From IMG/VR virus record IMGVR_UViG_3300009488_000008, positions 1 to 41,109 of that record: a stretch of 41,109 nt of DNA. One strand, written 5' to 3'. Both the position numbers and the translations under genes were made by a program. Below, in pieces: positions 11,127 to 27,502 of this stretch. Numbering within the stretch: the stretch's first letter is position 1; each line of letters opens with the position of its first letter. The notes under the pieces are model-generated. The model was given only the letters and a program-made list of their open reading frames with translations, searched no databases and was not told where the DNA came from. Origin of the DNA: a virus.

Positions 11127-12149
11127 ATGGGATTGATTCGTAGGGGTCGTCATTGGTGGCTCGATATCAGAATTCGGGGAAAGCGGATCCGTCGATCCTT
11201 GCATACCGCACATAAAACGATCGCCCTGGCTCGATATGGAGAAAAGAAGGAGGAGCTCGAGTCCGAGCTCGGCGGGGGGGAAATCCGCTTCTCCGACTTC
11301 TGTGACAAGTATCTCGAATGGGCCTGGTCCTCAAAGCCTGCCTCGGCACTCCGGGAACAACAGAGGTTAAGGAAAATCCAGGATTTCTTTCAGGGCCTGG
11401 AAATTGTCTATCTCGATGACATTACTTCTTATCACATAGAACAGCTCAAAGCTCATCTGAAAAAACAGGGTCTATCTAAGGCCACGATCAACCGCTATCT
11501 TCAAATCCTGAGAGGGCTGTTCTATAAGGCGATCGATTGGGAGGTCTATAATAAACCCAATCCCCTGAAGAAAATCCGCTTTTATCGCGAGGAGAGCCCC
11601 GTAGAGAGCCTTTCTCCCGAAGATATGCAGAAGATACTGTATGCTGCCAGGGCAATCTCAGAGAAGCCGGGCAGCAAACTCCAGGCATTATTCCATGATC
11701 TTGTGATGTTTGCCCTTAATACCGGGATGAGGAAGTCTGAGATATTGAACCTTACATGGGATGGCGTAAAAGGGGACACCGTATCCATAAGAGGCAAAGG
11801 AGAGAGGGGGCGAACTGTTCCTCTGAATCTCCGAGCAAAAGCGATCATCATTCGGCAACCCCGGAAGGACTCATATATCTTCGATATCCCGAATCGCCAT
11901 CAACCAGATCTATTCAGGCGAACAATCATAAGGATAAGGAAGGAGACGGGGATCAATTTCCATTTCCACTTGCTTAGGCATTACTTCGTTTCTGTGCTCC
12001 TGGAGAAGGGCGTTGACATCACGACCATAGGAGATATAGTTGGACACAGCCGGAAGATGACCTCTCTCCTTTATAGTCATACTAATAAGGAAAGGAAGAG
12101 AAAGGCCGTAAAATTACTTGACCTCGCAGGAGAAGAGGAATATTATTAG
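11127..12149 (+). CDS. int: Phage tyrosine integrase, 340 aa
   Basis: The arm-binding N terminus (residues 1-48), core-binding SAM-like domain (about 52-145) and catalytic domain are in the usual order and length. Catalytic residues are Arg202 (TGMRKSE), Lys224 (RGKGERGR), His281 and Arg284 (HLLRH), His307 (GHS) and the nucleophile Tyr316 (YSHT). It catalyses recombination between the attP core at 12631-12677 and a tRNA-Phe gene. It starts ten bases after the lipoprotein gene. It is more G+C-rich than its A+T-rich neighbours. The stop is TAG, followed in frame by the next ATG. Confidence 0.95.
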   Translation: MGLIRRGRHWWLDIRIRGKRIRRSLHTAHKTIALARYGEKKEELESELGGGEIRFSDFCDKYLEWAWSSKPASALREQQRLRKIQDFFQGLEIVYLDDITSYHIEQLKAHLKKQGLSKATINRYLQILRGLFYKAIDWEVYNKPNPLKKIRFYREESPVESLSPEDMQKILYAARAISEKPGSKLQALFHDLVMFALNTGMRKSEILNLTWDGVKGDTVSIRGKGERGRTVPLNLRAKAIIIRQPRKDSYIFDIPNRHQPDLFRRTIIRIRKETGINFHFHLLRHYFVSVLLEKGVDITTIGDIVGHSRKMTSLLYSHTNKERKRKAVKLLDLAGEEEYY

Positions 12150-14281: not shown

Positions 14282-15631
14282 TCAAGGATCTTGTGACTGC
14301 ATACTAAATGGGTTTTGTGTTGTTATGGTAATGGGTGTACTCAGGGTACATGCACCGAGCATGTTGATTGCCCTATCATACCGGAACCGCATGTATCTTA
14401 CTTCAACAGATTGATTGCCGGTCTGCTTAGCATAAATCTGGATGAGATCCTGTGAATCACACGCTCCGATACCCTCATTAAAAGCATGCCAAGTATCCGT
14501 GTCCCATTCGTGTTCAATTCCCGATATCGGCACACCATTCTTGTAAATCTTTACATAGGCGGGATATTCGGGATAGATGCCGACGCTTCTCATCTCGAAA
14601 TATAAGCTCATCGCTCCCGTCGGCTCTCCCATCTTGACCTCTTTGATTTTCGTGTAGGTGCTTGAACCGGTACTCTTTATGCTATCATTGCTATTTCTGA
14701 CGGCAGTGCTTACTTTCGAAAGAATTTTTATGACGATCGAAGTCGAATCGTAAAGCCTCAGCCATGCGCCGTCCCCGGCAACGCATTCAGCAGGATGGCC
14801 TGAGAGCTTCCTCATAAGCCCGTGCCTGCTCTCCGAGACATTCAGGTCGATATTATTCTCTGGCTCGGCCAGGTCGTCCAGCCTTATAAAATCGGCCCCA
14901 CCCGCTTGATGTCTTGTTTTATGGACGGGCAAATCCGCTGCCGCGATCGCCGCCCAGGACGGGTCGGTTCCGTTCGACCTGAGAAAAGTCCCTGATGCCC
15001 CCTTTGCCAGCCTCGCCCATTTCGGGGTAGCATTCCCGATCATGATATCCCCTCGGACTACGGAAGCGGGAAGGGAGTCTGGGTGGTCAGCAGATAGAAT
15101 ATTATGATTCCTGGTGTGGTGCTGATTCTCTGTCACATCGGTCAACGCACTATGGGGCTTTGTGGAGTGAGAGGCTAAAGTATGCGACTGTGCGTGGTGT
15201 TGGTCAGAGGTCACGCCTGTAAGTTCGGAATGAGCTTTTGAGCTATGAGAGGCTAATGAATGAGATTGCGGGTGATGCTGGTCTGCCGAGACTCCGCCTA
15301 AATCAGAGTGCTGTAATTCCGCCCAAATGAAAGAAGTCGCCCCAGATGCCCTGACCACATGGCCAATGGTAAGTCCTGATGCCGTATGCTTTGCACCGGC
15401 TAAAGCGTGAGCAGAGGGGGTGAATGTTGCGGGCTTATTGGTGATACGATCCCAGTGAACTTGTTTTTTTCCTGCGTCCTCACCCTCAAAGAAATTGTCC
15501 AGTTCAGTTTTAGAATAGCCATAAGAGCCTGATAGATTTTTAATCTTAGGCCAGAGTCCATGCACAGTTCGCCATTCAGATTGAACGTGCTGACGCCACT
15601 CTTTCCTGGTTATGTATGCTTTTTCGAGCAC
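14282..15631 (-). CDS. Tail fibre / receptor-binding protein with HxH repeats, 449 aa
   Basis: GTG at 15631 shares its G with the TAG of the tip protein. Residues 60-185 carry His-rich repeats (VSADQHHPQSHSLASHS, VTSDQHHAQSHTLASHS, VTENQHHTRNH), the HxH pattern that binds iron along trimeric phage fibres. Residues 185-270 (ARLAKGASGTFLRSNGTDPS) are a common fibre module. The C-terminal 180 residues (VVIKILSKV... onward) form a beta domain that probably contacts the receptor. It is the last structural gene, the usual place of a host-range protein. Confidence 0.85.
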   Translation of the reverse strand: MLEKAYITRKEWRQHVQSEWRTVHGLWPKIKNLSGSYGYSKTELDNFFEGEDAGKKQVHWDRITNKPATFTPSAHALAGAKHTASGLTIGHVVRASGATSFIWAELQHSDLGGVSADQHHPQSHSLASHSSKAHSELTGVTSDQHHAQSHTLASHSTKPHSALTDVTENQHHTRNHNILSADHPDSLPASVVRGDIMIGNATPKWARLAKGASGTFLRSNGTDPSWAAIAAADLPVHKTRHQAGGADFIRLDDLAEPENNIDLNVSESRHGLMRKLSGHPAECVAGDGAWLRLYDSTSIVIKILSKVSTAVRNSNDSIKSTGSSTYTKIKEVKMGEPTGAMSLYFEMRSVGIYPEYPAYVKIYKNGVPISGIEHEWDTDTWHAFNEGIGACDSQDLIQIYAKQTGNQSVEVRYMRFRYDRAINMLGACTLSTPITITTQNPFSMQSQDP

Positions 15632-18600
15632 TAAACTTTCTCCAATGTGACGCCTGTTTTCCCTGTCTGTGGATTTTTCTCGACTCTTAGAATCCTTAAA
15701 GAGAGCTCACTTGCTGTGCCACTTATGTCGTAAAATCTCGTTCTACTAAATGGAATTAACTCCCCAGGAAATTGGTCAAAGAGAATCATCGGAAGCTCAT
15801 CGGTAATATAAGTCTTATTCAAATAATCGCTGAGTATCTTAGTTGCTAAAGCCTGAGCGTTTGAAGGGTCTCTGAAATAGGTATAGATTGACAGCTCTTT
15901 CTCGACTCCGAACTTGCGTTTAATATCATTGTCAGTCGCTTCCTTGACTTGCCATTCCTGGCTCTGACAATTTTCTCCATAGAACACCCGCACTTTCCAG
16001 TAGAGCGAATCCCTGTCCTTATTGTGCCGATGCCCTTTACTCTGAAAGTTCCAGATATATTTTGCCTTCGATGGGACTGTCGTTTGTAGCGGTCTCAATC
16101 CGAGCCGTGCGTCCCCGTCCTGTAGGATAAAGGCTTCTGTCGTATGCTCTAAAGTCTTTAATATCTCATCGTAAGGGGTGTCCTTATAGAACAGAATTGA
16201 CAGGCTTTTCGTATTCGCATCTCTCGTCTCGTATATCCAATCGACATTTAATTTAGTCGTGTCGATATTTGCCTCATTATTCAATATGTGTTTGAATATC
16301 TCAGCCCCATTCTCGACCACTTCATCGGCTGTATTGACCATTCCCGTGAAGGACACAAGGACAATATCATCCTCTCCGACATCAACACTCGCATCGAAAA
16401 CAATAATGCTTCGTTGGAGATCGCAATAATAATCGGTGTCCTTTGTTTTCTCGACATCGTTCACCGTGACCTTGCCAACAGTTTTCGATCGCCCATCATG
16501 ATAGCTGAATTTTGCCGACTCGTTCGTTGTGGCATCGTAACCTTTAATCGGGACAGGGGCAACGTCCTCAACGTATCCGTACGCCTTCGGCTTCTCCCGC
16601 CCTTCAAAATCCTCTTCCATGTCTGGGTAGTCGGTTATCCAGTATTTATTAAGAATCAAATCTCGCTCAAGTTCCTTCCTGGCATCCCTTAATGAGAATG
16701 TAATCTTTCTGTCCTCGATACTCTTATCCGAGATATGGGCTGAGAACATCTTTTTAAAATCAGCGAGAGCCGAGAAACTATCCTTCCCGCAATAGAGCGT
16801 AAGCCTCGAGCCTATCCAGGTGAACTTCTCGAACCGCTTATCGAAATAATATTCCCCTTTGCTTAGAGCGTTTATAAGCGATATAGAGCCTGTGGATAGA
16901 CGGAAGCTACCCTCGAAGCACGACTTAATCTCCTGTGTCACCTGGGGGATGCTCTGCGCCGATAGCCAGGGAGGAAGCGTACAGAGGGTGTCTGCATAGG
17001 TAAAATTCCTATTCGAGATAAGATGGGTGAATCCGCCCTCCATGAAGAAGTTGTCTGGGTCTGTCCCATCACTCGAATGGACATAGAGCTTCTGATTTGC
17101 GCTATCCCAGTACCATGTTAAGGCGGTAGCTTCGACTTGAGCGATAGATGCCTTCTCGGTCAGGGCAATTCCATCCTCCCAGATATTATCAAATTCAAGC
17201 CCTCGCTCATCCTGAAGGATAGGGTATTCTGCAATAGAAACATCATCAAAATAGATTGAAGATGAGGCGGCTGTTCCTCTTCGGAAATGAAATCGATAAT
17301 CTGAATAATCTGGATGAGTAATAAATTCTAATTCATATTTCTTCCAGGTTGTTGAATTTGGTAAATCAATCTCATAATTATCTACATTCCAAGTCCCGTC
17401 TTCTTTTAAATAAACATTATAACCAGAGTCTCGAAAATTAACTCTTGCTGTTTTTCCTGCCACAGAATTTTTGTACCAAATGACTATTTTATTTTTTTTC
17501 CCTATCCCCAATGTTATGCTCTCATAAATATATATATCGCTGTTACTCGCATCTACGTCAAATCGACAAGAATAAGAATCGCCATGCACCTCTACCGATT
17601 CCCTGTTAACTGTAGATGAACCCGTTATCGTTTCCGTCCAATGCGTCAAATCCGTAGCACTTGCCCAAACCTCCATCCTGCCGTCATCGAGCTTTTCTTT
17701 CTGTAGTTCATAGGTATATGACTGACCCGTTACCAGCGTAAATCCCGACAAGTCCATCTTCAAATCAATCCCTGCGATATAGACAGGCTCGATATTCGGG
17801 TCACGCACAAAGACCTCGAATTCCGTCCTCTCGTATTGAGCGTCAGTCGTATCGTTCTCTGAAGCCGTGAAGGCGGAGTCGCCCACGCCGTTATAGCTAC
17901 AGACACGAATCCAGTATTGGTCATTAGAGTTAAGCCCCTTAAAGAAGTATTCCGTCACATCGCTGGCTACGATATGCTCGGTTTCCTCTCCGCCGAATAC
18001 GCCAGTATCCGATATCTGGACTTTATATCCAGCAACCGCAAAGCCCGCTGCAGGGGCAGTCCAAGAGAATCGCATCTCCTCATCCGTAACTTCCGAGATA
18101 GTCGCACCAGTCGGGACATTGGGAATATTATTTGCCGTGACCTGTGTCCCTGTCGTATAGCCTGAATAATTCGCAGGATCTTCTTTAGCTCTAACTTGAT
18201 ATGTATAATTATTGCCAGCAACGGCGGTTGTGTCCCTATAGTATTCCATATTGGCTGCGACATTTCCTATCTCACCGAAAGCCCCTGCTCCCAATTTCCG
18301 TTCAATGCGAAATGAATCTTCAGCAGAAGAGTTATCCTTAAAGATTATCTCAATGAAGTCGGAGAAAACGAGGGTCTCGATATCCGTTGGGGCTTGGAGT
18401 AGAGCATAGGTCGTCTCGCAGTCCTCGGTACAGAAGTCCGTTTCACCTGGTGGTTCATACCATCCACCCAATGCTTTATAGCAATAATTAGTGCTTGGGT
18501 CTAAGCCATTAAGCCCATAATATTCAAGGTGTCCAGCAATAACTTCTTTGAGCACATAGCCTGCGGATTCTCGATTTTCCCACACCTCGATGTACTGGTA

Positions 18601-18684
18601 CTCATCCCCATTGACCCAAGTAAGGTGTCCCGTGTAGGGGCTGTCAACGATAAAATCGATATTAGAGGGCGCAACGCCGGGCAT
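15631..18684 (-). CDS. Large tail tip / baseplate hub protein with FN3 and CBM-like domains, 1017 aa
   Basis: Residues 1-281 hold three fibronectin-III-like domains (for example NVPTGATISEVTDEEMRFSW). Residues about 340-490 form a jelly-roll like family 4/9 carbohydrate-binding modules (SYSCRFDVDASNSDIYIYES to SSIYFDDVSIAEYP). Residues 500-1017 form the hub-like part (KEYYFDK, DARKELERDLILNKYWI, LSLRILRVEKNPQTGKTGVT). The order tape measure, distal tail, this gene, fibre supports a siphovirus tip. The CBM-like stretch (about 17214-17660) is visibly A+T-rich, suggesting a recent domain gain. Start at ATG 18684, overlapping TAATG. Confidence 0.8.
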   Translation of the reverse strand: MPGVAPSNIDFIVDSPYTGHLTWVNGDEYQYIEVWENRESAGYVLKEVIAGHLEYYGLNGLDPSTNYCYKALGGWYEPPGETDFCTEDCETTYALLQAPTDIETLVFSDFIEIIFKDNSSAEDSFRIERKLGAGAFGEIGNVAANMEYYRDTTAVAGNNYTYQVRAKEDPANYSGYTTGTQVTANNIPNVPTGATISEVTDEEMRFSWTAPAAGFAVAGYKVQISDTGVFGGEETEHIVASDVTEYFFKGLNSNDQYWIRVCSYNGVGDSAFTASENDTTDAQYERTEFEVFVRDPNIEPVYIAGIDLKMDLSGFTLVTGQSYTYELQKEKLDDGRMEVWASATDLTHWTETITGSSTVNRESVEVHGDSYSCRFDVDASNSDIYIYESITLGIGKKNKIVIWYKNSVAGKTARVNFRDSGYNVYLKEDGTWNVDNYEIDLPNSTTWKKYELEFITHPDYSDYRFHFRRGTAASSSIYFDDVSIAEYPILQDERGLEFDNIWEDGIALTEKASIAQVEATALTWYWDSANQKLYVHSSDGTDPDNFFMEGGFTHLISNRNFTYADTLCTLPPWLSAQSIPQVTQEIKSCFEGSFRLSTGSISLINALSKGEYYFDKRFEKFTWIGSRLTLYCGKDSFSALADFKKMFSAHISDKSIEDRKITFSLRDARKELERDLILNKYWITDYPDMEEDFEGREKPKAYGYVEDVAPVPIKGYDATTNESAKFSYHDGRSKTVGKVTVNDVEKTKDTDYYCDLQRSIIVFDASVDVGEDDIVLVSFTGMVNTADEVVENGAEIFKHILNNEANIDTTKLNVDWIYETRDANTKSLSILFYKDTPYDEILKTLEHTTEAFILQDGDARLGLRPLQTTVPSKAKYIWNFQSKGHRHNKDRDSLYWKVRVFYGENCQSQEWQVKEATDNDIKRKFGVEKELSIYTYFRDPSNAQALATKILSDYLNKTYITDELPMILFDQFPGELIPFSRTRFYDISGTASELSLRILRVEKNPQTGKTGVTLEKV

Positions 18685-19439
18685 TATTTAACCTCAACGA
18701 GCGAGGCCCTCCAATTCCAATAGTCTTTGTGCTGATAGGGCCGGGAGGCGATGCTCGCGAACTTCATCCAATGACTATCGTCGTTGGGATTATCGGGATC
18801 AAAAACAACGACGAAGGCCCACATTTTTTTATGGTATTTAATGAAAGTATTTATCGCATCCTTCGACGTGGTGTTAAGTCCCTTGAACGGCAATATCCGC
18901 GTGTCCAGGATCTCCTTCTCCTGGCCAAAGAATATCCCGGCCTCTGAGTAATCTCCTTCCGAGAGATCGTCGTTCCCCTCCTCGTAGGGCTTTACGAACG
19001 ATCTGTTCGGCTCGAGTTGTTCGCCACAGATGACGGTCGCGAATTGAGGATAGTCCGTGAAGTCCGATCCCTTCTCCAGCCGCACCCGAACATATTGTTT
19101 GGCTGCCCAGGCGGTGAAGGATTTGAAAATATTCACAGCATTGTAAGTTAATGTTTCTGTCACCACTCCGGTGGTAAATGCCGAATTCGTGGCCCCCTGG
19201 AACTTGATTGTCACTCCGCTCAGCTCGAAATTATGAGCGAGGATCGCAACGAAATCTATCACCTGAGCCGTTATTAAATCATTCGGTACGAGACAGGGTT
19301 GCGTCTTGACCGCGGCTTTATAGAACATCGATTTCGTATCCGCCTGCGTATCCGTCGCCGGATGCTTCACGTCCTCGCTCGAGGGCGTCAGCATCGTTCC
19401 CGCGCGCCAGAGGCTTTTGATGAGTCGTATGTTTGACAT
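18684..19439 (-). CDS. Distal tail protein-like, 251 aa
   Basis: It lies between the tape measure and the tip protein, the place of Dit in siphoviruses. The protein is beta-rich (VDFVAILAHNFELSG.. type strands, FVVVFDPDNPNDDSHW, ASRPYQHKDYWNWRASLVEV). The YWNWRASLVEV ending is typical of small tail proteins that join tube and tip. Assignment is by position and general look. Confidence 0.6.
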   Translation of the reverse strand: MSNIRLIKSLWRAGTMLTPSSEDVKHPATDTQADTKSMFYKAAVKTQPCLVPNDLITAQVIDFVAILAHNFELSGVTIKFQGATNSAFTTGVVTETLTYNAVNIFKSFTAWAAKQYVRVRLEKGSDFTDYPQFATVICGEQLEPNRSFVKPYEEGNDDLSEGDYSEAGIFFGQEKEILDTRILPFKGLNTTSKDAINTFIKYHKKMWAFVVVFDPDNPNDDSHWMKFASIASRPYQHKDYWNWRASLVEVK

Positions 19440-21778
19440 TATTTAAACACCGTCACTGGAAGTTTTATATCCCCGGCCTCGCCGCCGAGGTTCACGTTCT
19501 TGACAATCTCCTCGTATCTGTCCCCCACTTGGATGGGGATAATTATTCTTATAGAAGCGATGGTCTCTCGGAGCGTTTCCCGGAACGTCTCCCGCAACAT
19601 CGGCTGTGGGGCAAGAAGTTCGCCCTTGTGGGCCTGTACAAGCATATCTCGAGGGAGGAGCGCCCCCTCAGCCGCAGACGGCACTGCTTGCTTTTTAATC
19701 CCCTTGACCTGTTTAAATCCGGCAGCAAGGGCCAGTGCAACAAAAGGAATCGCCCAAGGAAATCCCAACTCGGCAATGGTTTTTGATGCTCCCTGATATG
19801 TATTCCAAACTGCAGAGGCCAGGGCAAACTCTTTTCCTGCTCCACTCAGAGATGACAGTCCGATCCCGATCTTATCCATCGCACTCAGTTGGGTCTCTGC
19901 CATAGCCGTAGAGCCCGCCTCGAATGCACCTATCTGGTTGTTCAGCCAGTTGTTGGAAGCCGCCTCTGCGCCTTCCATCGACTTGTCCCACTCGTAGAGG
20001 AAGAAATCACCGAACCCGGAGACGCCCGTTTCGAAAGCCTCGCCGATATCCGTGAAATCGATATCGGGAAGAAGCTCGCTTACGTCGGGAATAATCTTCA
20101 GCGCCTCAGCCTCTTTTATTATAGCTGCCCGCTCCTCTCGCGCGGCTGCCTCGGCAAGGATCTCCTCCTTCAATGCTTTATAGAGGACGATTGCCTGCGC
20201 GTTCATGTAGTTCTCTGCCCTCTGTGCCTCGGCGGCGGCCAACGTTTTGTCGGTCGTTAACACCAGCGCATCGCGGTATTCCTGCAACCTCGTGATCGCT
20301 TCGTCTGTGGTCTTTGAGTCCTCCATAATCCAATGAACCTTCTCCCGCAACGCTGCCGCTTGCTGTCCTATGATGCCGACAAAACCCGAGAAGGGTTCTT
20401 TCATGCGCGCTAACTGCGCCTCGGTCTCTATTAGCTGATTTTGATGATCCGCCCATGCTTGCGTGACGTGTCCCAGCGTCGGGAGTTGTTTGTTTTTTAA
20501 ACTAAGAACCATCCCATCGAAGAGCATTTTCAGCATTCCCACGTTGACATTGGTACTTCTCACTGTTTGCGAGAATTTTTCTACGCCGGCTACTGTTGGG
20601 CCTCCAATTATTCCGCCCATCGTCTCGGACGTACCCATTAATCTCTTCACCTCTTTATCCAAATCCTCAGATGATTTTATCCCGGCCTTTACCGGATCGG
20701 CAAAGCCTGTGTAAAAAGATTCTTTGAATTTATCCATCGAGGTTTCGGCTACATCAATCCAGAAAGTTAGGGAATCCTTCTGCTTGTCGAAGGCCTCGGT
20801 GGTGAGGCCAGACACATCTTTTAGGAACTCAAGATCATCCGCAAAACCCTGGGCCGCCGATCCGCACAATGCCATTGCTCCAGATAACGCCCTCACGTCC
20901 GGGATGAAAAGCTTCATTAATTCGGCGTTCCCCGCGGTGCCTTTTTTGAGATCGGCCAGGAAAGCCCCGAGCCCTTTTGCTCTGAGCGCTTGGGCGGAGA
21001 ATTCGAAACCCAAATCCTTCGCCTGCTGCTTCAGCGCGGGGGTCGCCTTGAGCACGGCCATCAAGACCTGCCTCAAATACATCGTGGCCTTCGATGCCTG
21101 AATCCCCTGTCGCGTGAGCGTAGCCGTGGCGGCTCCGATCTCTCTGAACTCAATCCCCAGCATAGAGGCTGCCGGAACGACGGTTCCGATGGATTGTGCC
21201 AACTCCTCGTAGGTTAGCTTTCCTTTTTTAACGACCCCAAACATTAGGTTCGAGACATGGGAGGCCGCCTCCGCCTCTAATCCGTAGGCGTTGATCACCG
21301 TCGTAAGAGCATCGACGGCTGTCCTTGTGTCCGTAACCCCTGCCGTTGCCGAGCGCGCCGCTGTGGCAAGCAACTCAATGGCCTTTGCCGGCTCCACGGA
21401 GGCAGAGAGCACTTGGTACATTCCTTTTGCCAGGTCAGCCGTGTCGCCCAGAGTCGGCGAGAGATATCGAAGCTCTTGTCGCAGTTTGCCCGTCTCTTCT
21501 TTTGAGATGGTGAGCATTGTCGTGACGTTTGCCCACTCGCGCTCGAACTCCCTACCTACGTCGATAGTGTCCATAAACTGCTGCCGCATCACCCGAATGC
21601 CGGAAGAGACGACTTGCGTGACTCCGAGGCCCATGGCCGTTTGCTTCCAGAGGCCCTGGATGCGAGATGATGTCTTGGTTGCTGTTTTATTGAGCCTATC
21701 CAGATGATCGTCAAACTTCTTTATCGCAGCCGTACCTTTCTTGGAGTCAAATACGACGATAAACTTCACGTCACCCAT
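19439..21778 (-). CDS. Tail tape measure protein, 779 aa
   Basis: The N-terminal 330 residues match the conserved TMP core: EFEREWANVTTMLTISKEET, ADLAKGMYQVLSASVEPAKA, TTVINAYGLEAEAASHVSNL and FREIGAATATLTRQGIQASK. Long helices follow, with a hydrophobic stretch near residues 660-690 (WAIPFVALALAAGFKQVKGI). It sets tail length and is packed inside the tube; 779 residues suggest a tail of very roughly 100-120 nm by the usual 1.5 Angstrom per residue rule. ATG shares one base with the frameshift product's TAA. Confidence 0.92.
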   Translation of the reverse strand: MGDVKFIVVFDSKKGTAAIKKFDDHLDRLNKTATKTSSRIQGLWKQTAMGLGVTQVVSSGIRVMRQQFMDTIDVGREFEREWANVTTMLTISKEETGKLRQELRYLSPTLGDTADLAKGMYQVLSASVEPAKAIELLATAARSATAGVTDTRTAVDALTTVINAYGLEAEAASHVSNLMFGVVKKGKLTYEELAQSIGTVVPAASMLGIEFREIGAATATLTRQGIQASKATMYLRQVLMAVLKATPALKQQAKDLGFEFSAQALRAKGLGAFLADLKKGTAGNAELMKLFIPDVRALSGAMALCGSAAQGFADDLEFLKDVSGLTTEAFDKQKDSLTFWIDVAETSMDKFKESFYTGFADPVKAGIKSSEDLDKEVKRLMGTSETMGGIIGGPTVAGVEKFSQTVRSTNVNVGMLKMLFDGMVLSLKNKQLPTLGHVTQAWADHQNQLIETEAQLARMKEPFSGFVGIIGQQAAALREKVHWIMEDSKTTDEAITRLQEYRDALVLTTDKTLAAAEAQRAENYMNAQAIVLYKALKEEILAEAAAREERAAIIKEAEALKIIPDVSELLPDIDFTDIGEAFETGVSGFGDFFLYEWDKSMEGAEAASNNWLNNQIGAFEAGSTAMAETQLSAMDKIGIGLSSLSGAGKEFALASAVWNTYQGASKTIAELGFPWAIPFVALALAAGFKQVKGIKKQAVPSAAEGALLPRDMLVQAHKGELLAPQPMLRETFRETLRETIASIRIIIPIQVGDRYEEIVKNVNLGGEAGDIKLPVTVFK

Positions 21779-22541: not shown

Positions 22542-23576
22542 CTACGCCAACATGTCCGCTGTGCGCTTGTTCTGCACCTTCAGCTGAACGGGTTTTGTGA
22601 TCCCCGACATGCCCGTCGGCGCGGCGTCAGCCTCAAGCCCCCTCAGGGTGATTGTCGCGGGGATGATGTTCTCGTCCGGATAATCCACGTCCTCAATCTT
22701 CAAGCGAGGGAATTCGAATTTGAAGAAGTAGTAAGAGGTACCCGTAATCAGCGCGCCCGTGAATATCAGGTCAGCCTTCTTCTCGTTCTCAGAGGTCCAG
22801 TCACCGAAATAAACATCATTCACGTTGTCCATGCGATTCAGTTCCAGCGTCAGTTTGATTGCGATCTTCCCTTCCTCAAGCGCCTCAATAATAGAGTCCG
22901 ATCCACCCTCATGCTCGCCGCCTTCAGGCTTCCGTTCAATCTCGAGCGTGAAGTTCTTGACCTTGATCGCGTCGTCGCCATCAAGCGCATCTCCAGCCTG
23001 AGCGTTCATCCTGAACACCAACTGCTTTTTAAGAACGCGGTTATGCTTATCGGGGACAGTGACCGAAGCAAGAGTCGTGACAATCGCCGAATCATCGATG
23101 ACTTTGTCGCCCTTGAGATCGACCGTAAGTTTGAGCTTTCCTCCGTCCATCGTAAACGTCAACTTATAAGGTTTCGCGCTCGGCACGACGTGGTATTTAT
23201 CATGCTTCTCCGTCGCATAGGTGCCGAAGAGTGCTGCAATGGTATTCGCCAACGTGAGCGTGTGTAGCCGCGCAGTTCCCTCTGGCGTAGAGGGTGCGCC
23301 TGCCGCCCCAAATACTTGAGCGACAATGGGTCCCAGACCTTCGTAGCGGGCATCAAATTCGAGCGAGAAGTCTACGGGATCGAAATCACCCAAATCAAGA
23401 TCGCTCTCGAATGCACTCACGGGCGACTCCTCGGGAATCATAGCGATGGCCTGCTTTATTGCCCCCGCATTGAGGGGCAAGATTCCATTCCCTGCGGCAT
23501 TGGGGTCAATCTCCGTGCCCCAGGCGCTGGCCTTCTTCCAGGCGCTTTTGTTTAATCGTTTCTCAATGTCTGCCAT
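22542..23576 (-). CDS. Tail tube protein, short paralogue, 344 aa
   Basis: Paralogue of the next gene: both share MADIEKR, GILPLNAGA, DFSLEFD.RYEGLGPI.AQVFG, LFGTYATEKHDK, HVVPSAKPYKLTF, VTVPDKHNR and the C-terminal FKFEFPRL..EDVDYPDE.IIPATI.LRGLEAD. The shared body is beta-rich and lies just before the chaperones, the place of the major tail protein. Unlike the long copy it lacks the two inserted domains, so it may be the basic tube subunit. AGGTAAAAATG-type ribosome site upstream. Confidence 0.75.
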   Translation of the reverse strand: MADIEKRLNKSAWKKASAWGTEIDPNAAGNGILPLNAGAIKQAIAMIPEESPVSAFESDLDLGDFDPVDFSLEFDARYEGLGPIVAQVFGAAGAPSTPEGTARLHTLTLANTIAALFGTYATEKHDKYHVVPSAKPYKLTFTMDGGKLKLTVDLKGDKVIDDSAIVTTLASVTVPDKHNRVLKKQLVFRMNAQAGDALDGDDAIKVKNFTLEIERKPEGGEHEGGSDSIIEALEEGKIAIKLTLELNRMDNVNDVYFGDWTSENEKKADLIFTGALITGTSYYFFKFEFPRLKIEDVDYPDENIIPATITLRGLEADAAPTGMSGITKPVQLKVQNKRTADMLA

Positions 23577-23595
23577 TTTTACCTCCGCATTTTAT

Positions 23596-25302
23596 TTACG
23601 CTGATAACATATCAGTCGTTCTTTTATTCATAACGCTGAGACGGATAGGCTTCGTTATGCCTGTCATCCCGTACGGGGCAGAGTCGGCCTCTAACCCCCT
23701 CAGCACTATCGTTGCCGGGATTATACTCTCATCGGGATAATCTACGTCCTCGAGCGTGAGGCGCGGGAACTCGAACTTGAAATAATAATCATACGGGCTC
23801 TCAATCTCAGCGCCCGTGAAGACAATGTCCATCTTCTTCTCGTTCCCTGCCTTCCAGTCGGCGAAATAGGCATCGTTTGCGTCATCCATGCGATTAAACT
23901 CGAGCGTGAGCTTCACTGTGGCTTTGCCCTCCTCCAGGGCCTCGATTATCGTCAGCGCCCCGCTCTCGTGCGCCCCGCTCTCCGTTGCCCGCTCAATCTC
24001 AAGCGTCAGGCTCTTGGCCTTGATCTCGTCGCCCGTGGCGAAGGCTGATCCGCTCACGTTGTCGGCCACGTAGGAGGCCGATCCCGCATCATCTGCCGCG
24101 TCGCTATATCCGCAGAGATCTGAGATATCCGTGGCCTTATGGGACCCAGTGTTCCAAAGCAAAGAGAACGTAGAGGAGGCAGCTATCGTGAATTTATGCG
24201 TCGACGTGGAGTAGGTTATGGTGTAAGTGAAGCCTCCGATTGCTTCCAGTTGTTTTTTTATCTCTGCGCACAACTCGGTCGAGGTATAGCTTCCGAGATC
24301 AAGCTCTGCCGTCAACTCTCCTCCGCCTTCTGCGAAATCGATGTGTTTATTCGTGGCCACTACGTCGAACATTCTATTCGCTACGGCGTTTAACCTCAGC
24401 ACGGCCTGTCGCAAGAGTATCCGATTATGCTTATCCGGCACGGTCACAGAACCGAGATTGGCTATGACGCCCGAGTTGTCGATCAGCTCATCACCTTTGA
24501 GATCTGCCGTGAGTTTAAGTTTGCCGGCATCGATGCCAAAGGTCAGTTTGTAGGGTTTGGCCGAAGGCACGACGTGAATCTTATCGTGCTTCTCTGTCGC
24601 ATAGGTGCCAAACAATCCGCTCGTCTTAGCCCTCAAATCCAGCACATGAAGATAGGCTGCCGTGGCCCCTTGTTGCGTCGGCCCTCCCTTTGGGTAATGA
24701 AAGCGCGTGTAGTCTGCCGCATAGGTCGCAGCGCCCGTGTCGTTAGCAGCGTCGCTATATCCACAGAGGTCTGAGATGTCGGCTGCTTTGTTTGTTCCCG
24801 TGTCCCAGCGAATCGTGAAATTCGAGGGTGCCGCTATGGTAAATTTCCGAGTGGCTTTGGAATACGAGACCACATAGGCCAATGCTCCCTCCGCTCTCAT
24901 TAGAGTCTGTATATGCGCGCACAAGGCATCTGCGGTGTATGTTCCGAGCGTCAGCGTAGCCGTTAGCTCTGCGCCCCCCTCGTCGAAGTCGATATACTTG
25001 CACGTGGCGGCCACGACGAACCTCTCGTCCGTCCCAAAGACCTGCGCCAGGATCGGCCCCAGACCCTCGTAGCGTCCGTCGAACTCCAAGGAGAAGTCCA
25101 CCGGGTCCTTGTGTACGATATCCAGATCGCTCTCCATGGCGCTCACCGCCGACTCCTCCTCGACGAGAGGAACCGCGAGCTTCAGCGCGCCCGCATTGAG
25201 CGGGAGGATTCCAAGTAACGCCACATTTACGTCGACCTCCGTGCCCCACACGAGGGCAGGCTTAAAGGCCGCCTTATTTACTCTTTTCTCTATGTCTGCC
25301 AT
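23596..25302 (-). CDS. Tail tube protein, long paralogue with two inserted copies of one domain, 568 aa
   Basis: The same scaffold as the short paralogue, interrupted twice by a roughly 105-residue domain: residues 94-198 (KYIDFDEGGAELTATLTLGT ... DISDLCGYSDAANDTGAATY) and residues 311-416 (KHIDFAEGGGELTAELDLGS ... DISDLCGYSDAADDAGSASY). This domain is one I recognise from many phage virion proteins. The inserts fall where the short copy has small loops, so they probably project from the tube. It may be a minor, decorated tube subunit, the first or last rings, or the main tube protein. Confidence 0.75.
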   Translation of the reverse strand: MADIEKRVNKAAFKPALVWGTEVDVNVALLGILPLNAGALKLAVPLVEEESAVSAMESDLDIVHKDPVDFSLEFDGRYEGLGPILAQVFGTDERFVVAATCKYIDFDEGGAELTATLTLGTYTADALCAHIQTLMRAEGALAYVVSYSKATRKFTIAAPSNFTIRWDTGTNKAADISDLCGYSDAANDTGAATYAADYTRFHYPKGGPTQQGATAAYLHVLDLRAKTSGLFGTYATEKHDKIHVVPSAKPYKLTFGIDAGKLKLTADLKGDELIDNSGVIANLGSVTVPDKHNRILLRQAVLRLNAVANRMFDVVATNKHIDFAEGGGELTAELDLGSYTSTELCAEIKKQLEAIGGFTYTITYSTSTHKFTIAASSTFSLLWNTGSHKATDISDLCGYSDAADDAGSASYVADNVSGSAFATGDEIKAKSLTLEIERATESGAHESGALTIIEALEEGKATVKLTLEFNRMDDANDAYFADWKAGNEKKMDIVFTGAEIESPYDYYFKFEFPRLTLEDVDYPDESIIPATIVLRGLEADSAPYGMTGITKPIRLSVMNKRTTDMLSA

Positions 25303-25498
25303 TTGATTTCACCTTTGCCTTTTTCATGGATTTTTTCTTCGCAGGCTTGACCTTCTCGCACCATCCATCTCGCTCCCAATTAGCGATAATGTCGGGATGA
25401 ATTCCCCTCTCTCCGGGATCAAATACATCGCCTGCCTCGAATGGGCCGTAGTCCGTATATTGCTTCTCGCGAACCCATTTATAAAGTTGATTATTCAT
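25274..25498 (-). CDS. Small head-tail region protein, 74 aa
   Basis: ATG 25498 (MNNQLYKWVREKQYTDYGPF) has GTGAGGTG upstream. An N-terminal beta-like segment (EAGDVFDPGERGIHPDIIAN) is followed by a Lys-rich tail. It overlaps the start of the long tail tube gene by 29 bases. No known domain. Confidence 0.6.
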   Translation of the reverse strand: MNNQLYKWVREKQYTDYGPFEAGDVFDPGERGIHPDIIANWERDGWCEKVKPAKKKSMKKAKVKSNGRHREKSK

Positions 25499-26676: not shown

Positions 26677-26741
26677 AACGCCTTCCTTGTATATTTTCTA
26701 AGCACATCCTCCACGTAGGGTAAGATGTTCTTCTCTGTCAT
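26673..26741 (-). CDS. Ultra-small coupled ORF, 22 aa
   Basis: The frame MTEKNILPYVEDVLRKYTRK-AL fills the 61-base gap between two structural genes. Its ATG overlaps the stop upstream and its TGA overlaps the ATG downstream, both as ATGA. It may be a real micro-gene, a remnant of a head-closure gene, or a device keeping ribosomes moving between cistrons. Confidence 0.4.
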   Translation of the reverse strand: MTEKNILPYVEDVLRKYTRKAL

Positions 26742-27502
26742 TTTTGATATCGAGCCATCGCCGAAGCTACGAGAGAGTTCTCCGTGTTCCTTCTTTGTCG
26801 CCTTTTATGTTCGATGGCCACCTGCTCGTTGCAGGCGAGCTTGAGGTCGTCGGGAATCCCCGAGCATTGCTCCGCCGAACCCGCAGGCTCGTTCACGGTC
26901 AGAACATTAGGGTTACCATCGGTTATGCTGACTTCCTCGTTGTCTGCGAACTCGCCCGTGATGGAGACGAACTCAACATATCCCACGGCATCCTCTCCTG
27001 CCCAGGTCCCGCTGGCGACTTTAATTGCCGATACGACGCCCGAGCCAGAGGCGCTCGTGAGCGTCTTGCCTATCGCCGGCTCCTCGGAGCCTGAGTCGAA
27101 TGCCATCCTCGAGACATCGGCCCAGCCCGCTTTGTATGTGAGCTTGATATTCCTCCGGATATCGGCCCAGATGCCCGCCTCCTTCCAGAGGATGCCCCAC
27201 TCGTAATCGACGGTGAAGTGCGTGTTCTCCGTCAGCGTGGCCCCTGCCTCCGTTATCTCGGAGATTGAGACCACAGGGAAATTCGGAAGCAGGAGATACG
27301 TTTTGCCCGAGCCGTCGAGGTATTTATCCGTATACGTAGTCTCTTTGAGCTGCTTGTCTCCCTGACCTCTCAATATCCCTTCGATTAAAGTGGAGATGGC
27401 GTTTATGAGAATCTCCAGAAGAGAGTCCTGCTCCGTGCCTGCCTCCTCCTGATAGACCTTCTGCTCCTGGAGTGTGACGATCGCATTCGCTTCAAGGGTC
27501 AT
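26738..27502 (-). CDS. Head-tail connector protein (gp6-like), 254 aa
   Basis: The N-terminal half is helical (NAIVTLQEQKVYQEEAGTEQ, LLEILINAISTLIEGILRGQ) then gives strands (TYLLLPNFPVVSISEITEAG, IKLTYKAGWAD), and the last 40 residues (PDDLKLACNEQVAIEHKRRQ) resume the helix of gp6-like adaptors. Between them residues about 135-200 hold an extra beta domain (IGKTLTSASGSGVVSAIKVA) likely exposed at the neck. Confidence 0.7.
   Translation of the reverse strand: MTLEANAIVTLQEQKVYQEEAGTEQDSLLEILINAISTLIEGILRGQGDKQLKETTYTDKYLDGSGKTYLLLPNFPVVSISEITEAGATLTENTHFTVDYEWGILWKEAGIWADIRRNIKLTYKAGWADVSRMAFDSGSEEPAIGKTLTSASGSGVVSAIKVASGTWAGEDAVGYVEFVSITGEFADNEEVSITDGNPNVLTVNEPAGSAEQCSGIPDDLKLACNEQVAIEHKRRQRRNTENSLVASAMARYQK

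Follow-up and report, generated by a model that had tools for sequence, protein, structure and literature searches.

Tail tubes are usually viewed as polymers of one protein, with optional terminal decorations of the Ig type. What, then, does a phage gain from two tube genes placed side by side, one of which carries the same extra domain twice? The question is raised by IMG/VR virus record IMGVR_UViG_3300009488_000008, analysed here over a stretch of 41,109 bases (the window). Two adjacent genes of this record had been read from sequence as copies of a common tube scaffold, the long copy decorated and the short copy not, and alignment together with a second, independent pair confirms that description. 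Here we trace the pair from its fold and inserted domains to its relatives, and weigh what a plain and a decorated tube subunit may do in a single virion.

A tandem pair of tail-tube genes

The two genes lie on the minus strand, the long copy upstream of the short copy with a gap of 19 nt, in a tail operon whose order is adaptor, tail terminator (a weak match), long tube, short tube, one small gene, tape measure and phrog_8610 protein. The features concerned are:

26738..27502, minus strand: head-tail adaptor (phrog_442, E 2e-19)
23596..25302, minus strand: decorated tail-tube paralogue, the long copy, 568 aa (open reading frame; scaffold model Z 27.3 to 8ed0; orthologue in contig L001)
24709..25023, minus strand: inserted domain D1 of the long copy, residues 94-198, at site 1, which follows helix alpha1 in tube domain 1 (E about 1e-59 to the domain profile; DSSP of the model)
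24061..24372, minus strand: inserted domain D2 of the long copy, residues 311-414, at site 2, where it separates strands 1 and 2 of tube domain 2 (profile match; DSSP)
22542..23576, minus strand: plain tail-tube paralogue, the short copy, 344 aa (Pfam Phage_tube_2, phrog_290, strong Shine-Dalgarno sequence)
19439..21778, minus strand: tape-measure protein, 779 aa (PHROG tape measure, E 1.7e-38)
18684..19439, minus strand: phrog_8610 protein, without the domain that most of its relatives carry at residue ~53 (profile searches, PHROG)

Each tube gene is a complete, separate open reading frame with its own start, and the inserts of the long copy are internal. Outside these two inserts the alignment of the proteins runs over their full length, with 231 of 344 aligned residues identical in a global alignment and 66% identity over scaffold codons. 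D1 and D2 are themselves paralogous (61 of 105 residues identical, 58%), their alignment scoring 316 against a mean of 0.4, a standard deviation of 10 and a maximum of 35 in 1000 shuffles. The same pair in the same order occurs in contig IMGVR_UViG_3300029813_000061 (L001), where the long copy is 83% and the short copy 85% identical to that of the window. This independent contig and the shuffles rule out an assembly artefact or a chance repeat. The initial annotation had placed D1 exactly; its D2 (24055-24372) differs by two codons, at the lower coordinate, from that given above.

Two neighbouring observations concern the wider genome. A 1017-aa protein encoded at 15631-18684, downstream of the tail-tip genes, combines an Fn3 domain with a match to a family of Hoc-like head-decoration proteins, and an integrase (11127-12149; PHROG, E 5e-54) lies on the strand opposite to the virion genes, from which the phage is probably temperate.

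Tube fold and ring architecture

The short copy matches Pfam Phage_tube_2 at 31 bits, above the curated cut-off of 27, and phrog_290 at E 6e-11. The long copy is not listed for Phage_tube_2 in Pfam, probably because of its inserts, and an in-house tube profile, which has the long copy among its own rows, matches its scaffold over the full length (E 7e-141). An AlphaFold2 model of the long copy, built from an 18-sequence alignment (mean pLDDT 71), matches the tubes of P74-26 (8ed0, Z 27.3, 307 residues aligned), SH-Ab15497 (8xan, Z 24.7) and T5 (pb6, 9iny, Z 23.1, 310 residues aligned). P74-26 and SH-Ab15497 provide the nearest solved scaffolds, at 13-14% sequence identity to the long copy. A 293-residue chain of the T5 tail-tip complex, the size of p140, also matches the model (9ioz_A, Z 19.9). 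With one protein above the Phage_tube_2 cut-off and the other at Z 23-27 to three tubes, the proposal that both are tube folds holds, and the Pfam match and the model's fold matches rule out a reading as non-tube proteins.

The structural matches extend over both tube domains (model range 5-561), and on the strength of the model the long copy is a predicted double-tube-domain subunit of the T5 and P74-26 kind. Such subunits form trimeric, pseudo-hexameric rings in T5 (PMC10038345). By analogy of subunit architecture, the ring here probably consists of three double-domain subunits and not of six single ones; the initial annotation had spoken of a hexameric ring.

Two insertions of one domain

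Within the model, D1 is preceded by the helix of tube domain 1 at residues 82-88, and D2 is flanked by strands 300-306 and 431-437. Sites 1 and 2 thus fall at non-equivalent positions of the two tube domains, and internal duplication of the tube therefore does not account for the double insertion. Site 1 is also occupied in L013, L028, L030, L035, L045 and L064, and a search of the short copy with the domain profile gave no match. Grouping D1 and D2 as a single clade receives a p-AU of 0.25, which neither supports nor rejects their origin by a simple internal duplication. Double insertion of one mobile domain into one protein had been considered unusual, which stands for tubes; it is not unique for the domain, of which L027 carries three copies in one 1020-aa protein (L027:5422-8484).

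In YSD1 the counterpart of site 1, which lies between alpha1 and beta4, holds an extra outer domain; in lambda, the beta1-beta2 loop adjoins the external Ig domain (both reviewed in PMC8718954). On these comparisons D1 and D2 are likely to be displayed outwards.

Across 30 domain members, searches of PHROGs and NCBIfam gave nothing at E 0.01; Pfam gave no Ig, Big or Fn3 match and one sub-threshold match (AglB_L1). A helix of 15 residues lies among the beta strands of the domain. An Ig-like or Fn3 decoration domain was thus rejected for want of any Ig, Big or Fn3 match in the 30 members.

An exchangeable module with giant-virus likenesses

The tube is not the domain's commonest carrier: that is the phrog_8610 protein, whose gene follows that of the tape measure, with the domain at residue ~53. 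The head-tail adaptors of L064 and L036 carry it too, as do long fibre-like proteins in L018 and L027, and two MAG contigs (L037 and L038) carry it in tail loci. Judged from this distribution among sequences, the domain is apparently an exchangeable module on several tail proteins, much as carbohydrate-binding modules (CBMs) swap among carriers in the 936 phages (PMC6669499). The labels of the two MAG contigs, Candidatus Zixiibacteriota and Aminicenantes, hint at the host phyla of the relatives.

The carriers have some features of their own. The model of a phrog_8610 relative (L010:9763-10860, pLDDT 91) has a CBM32/F5-8C discoidin-like core (Z 15.7), and from this core fold the phrog_8610 protein, in its tail-tip position, may bind carbohydrate. 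The window's adaptor has an extra stretch at about residues 140-210, with GTWAGEDAVGYVEFVSITGEFADNEEVSITDG, that is poorly matched in two relatives; those two instead have the tube's inserted domain near their N-termini, and the stretch is possibly another mobile insert.

A structural likeness lies outside the phages. The domain superposes on residues 285-400 of EhV-201 chain 8rbs_K, which we take to be the penton protein, with Z 13.8, rmsd 2.3 and 24% identity over 105 residues, 8rbs being an AlphaFold2 model fitted to density; the long tube model also matches this chain (Z 9.1). The EhV-201 penton insertion domain consists of five small globular domains (PMC11006232). A first domain profile of 4 rows found no match in the PDB; a profile of 30 rows found PBCV-1 P1v1 best (8h2i_bG, residues 90-177, E 0.0033 for the whole sequence and 0.013 for the stretch), the next best lying at E 0.22. 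The match falls inside insertion domain I of P1v1, which forms a channel holding the spike at the one unique vertex where P1v1 is used (PMC9617893). Penton insertion domains have a similar fold and are likewise loop-inserted and outward-facing; they differ in their carrier, a jelly-roll penton of a eukaryotic virus. Because fold and profile comparisons independently point to the same kind of protein, homology between the phage domain and giant-virus penton insertions is plausible, not proven.

Recurrence and ancestry of plain and decorated tubes

A search for homologous pairs in other phages, suggested in the initial annotation, found them in L001, L045 and L064, so that with the window at least four of 43 distinct tube-bearing contigs hold a plain/decorated tandem pair, a minimum since some contigs are fragments. 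Both other arrangements have a single insert at site 1: in L045 the decorated copy comes first, and in L064 the order is reversed, with the plain copy first. L063, a near relative of L064, has one tube. A decorated tube, with its insert at site 1, is the only one found in L028, L030 and L035, from which insertion is compatible with tube building; L013 also has a decorated tube, on a contig that begins inside the gene. Nearly all single-tube relatives are plain.

In scaffold trees the two long copies of the window and L001 pair off, as do the two short copies, within one clade whose nearest neighbours are the single plain tubes of L065 and L010. On these trees the duplication came after the split from L010 and L065 and before the window and L001 parted, and the long copies have the longer branch. 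Decorated copies as a whole do not form one clade (p-AU 5e-61; without L045, 2e-9), each being nearer to the group of its own plain partner. For the scaffold, this rules out one ancient decorated lineage that spread to all, with the proviso that gene conversion of the scaffold could mimic such non-monophyly. This leaves three or more origins of the pair, or homogenisation of the scaffolds, and both suggest that one plain and one decorated subunit are favoured.

Further afield, tblastn against named phages found no match for the long copy, the short copy, D1, D2 or a relative's domain, and no relative of the long tube was found in bacterial genomes. In the literature consulted, largely outside subscription journals, no plain/decorated tube gene pair with this internal double insertion is described.

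Selection and expression signals

Comparison of the window with L001 gives a dN of about 0.1 for long and short genes alike, with synonymous distances that are large or beyond the estimator's range, i.e. near or at saturation; D1 and D2 taken separately are as constrained as the whole genes. By this measure both copies are under purifying selection. Residues specific to each paralogue separate long from short and are fixed in both genomes, and divergence between long and short in the ring-contact loops is not clearly above average.

The two genes have different translation signals:

25310..25316, minus strand: weak Shine-Dalgarno sequence AAAGGTG of the long copy, dG -4.3 (the same weak site in L001)
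23581..23586, minus strand: Shine-Dalgarno sequence GGAGGT of the short copy, dG -10.8 (comparable site in L001, -9.4)

Fourteen single plain and two single decorated tubes range from -7.3 to -12.6, and the long copy's -4.3 falls outside this range. From the strong site of the short copy and the weak site of the long copy, we infer that plain subunits would dominate, with decorated subunits in the minority. The start of the long gene overlaps its upstream gene, and translational coupling through this overlap could offset the weak site. L045 and L064 have strong Shine-Dalgarno sequences at both copies, which with the reversed order in L064 means that a minority role for the decorated copy is not general.

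What the two subunits may do

We think it somewhat probable that the plain copy forms the bulk of the tube and that the weakly translated decorated copy, derived from a duplicated tube gene, supplies a minority of the subunits, with domains displayed for docking or adhesion. On this account, duplication of an ancestral plain tube gene gave two versions of one subunit, which would assemble together into pseudo-hexameric trimer rings around the tape measure. A ring made entirely of long copies would show six domains outside, at two non-equivalent sites per subunit, and the domain may bind weakly and multivalently to the host surface or to other proteins of the virion, a role suggested by analogy with the domain's carriers and relatives. 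The second gene would then do the job performed by a translational frameshift in SPP1 gp17.1* and lactococcal TpeX. More tentatively, duplication with unequal translation may set how densely a docking domain is displayed on the outside; the domain itself may be a mobile module of virion surfaces, passed between tailed phages and giant eukaryotic viruses and able to anchor fibres or spikes.

The decorated copy could alternatively be limited to a single ring or a small number of rings at the tip or the neck, for instance as fibre anchor or collar, with the plain copy making up the remainder of the tube, a possibility we regard as real without leaning towards it. T5 offers the precedent of paralogous double-domain tubes, one decorated and one plain, that occupy separate zones (PMC10038345), and the p140-sized tail-tip chain is among the model's matches (9ioz_A, Z 19.9). 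The long copy's weak Shine-Dalgarno sequence fits a low-copy part, the profile-matched P1v1 of PBCV-1 serves one unique vertex and holds its spike (PMC9617893), and the paralogue-specific residues are fixed in both genomes. Yet the single-ring copy of T5 is the plain one, decorated tubes stand alone in three other phages, and the ring-contact loops are not clearly more diverged than average.

The T5 arrangement (PMC10038345) could also be taken literally, with the decorated copy as bulk tube and the plain copy as a minor terminal ring, and L028, L030 and L035 do manage with a decorated tube only. This is unlikely: in the window and L001 it is the plain copy that has the strong Shine-Dalgarno sequence typical of single tubes and the decorated copy that lacks one, the decorated copy has the longer branch, and single-tube relatives are nearly all plain. 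Least credible, and disfavoured, is a redundant duplicate of no distinct role heading for loss. Tandem duplicates are common, and L063 has one tube where its near relative L064 has two; but genes and domains alike combine low dN with near-saturated synonymous sites between the window and L001, and pairs recur in three lineages.

Decorated and dual tail tubes compared

A bulk plain tube with a decorated minority has its closest parallels in SPP1 (gp17.1/gp17.1*) and the 936 phages (MTP-TpeX), where one scaffold likewise exists as two forms, the one plain or with less decoration, the other with more. In SPP1 the decorated form is the minority, at 3:1, and its decoration is proposed to bind the host surface (PMC8718954), as binding assays have shown for TpeX; Dit and neck proteins of 936 phages share modules of this kind (PMC6669499). 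However, both SPP1 and TpeX derive their two forms from one gene, by a programmed frameshift that adds a C-terminal extension, whereas here there are two genes and two internal insertions, and SPP1 assembles single-domain hexamers in place of double-domain subunits. With two complete open reading frames and internal inserts, the pair would work alike but is not a member of that frameshift system.

The pb6/p140 pair of T5 resembles this one in uniting paralogous double-domain tubes, one decorated and one without decoration, p140 making the one ring that adjoins the distal tail protein (PMC10038345). It differs in that the decoration of pb6 is one C-terminal Ig-like domain, against two non-Ig domains in internal loops here, and in that pb6 and p140 are 9% identical, against 66% for the scaffolds of these adjacent genes.

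The pair thus extends a known theme of decorated and dual tail-tube proteins with a domain that has no curated family in the libraries used. The likeness to penton insertions suggests that virion-surface modules are common to different virus realms, and a plain/decorated pair that can be separated genetically, present in three lineages, provides a clean way to ask what tail decoration does.
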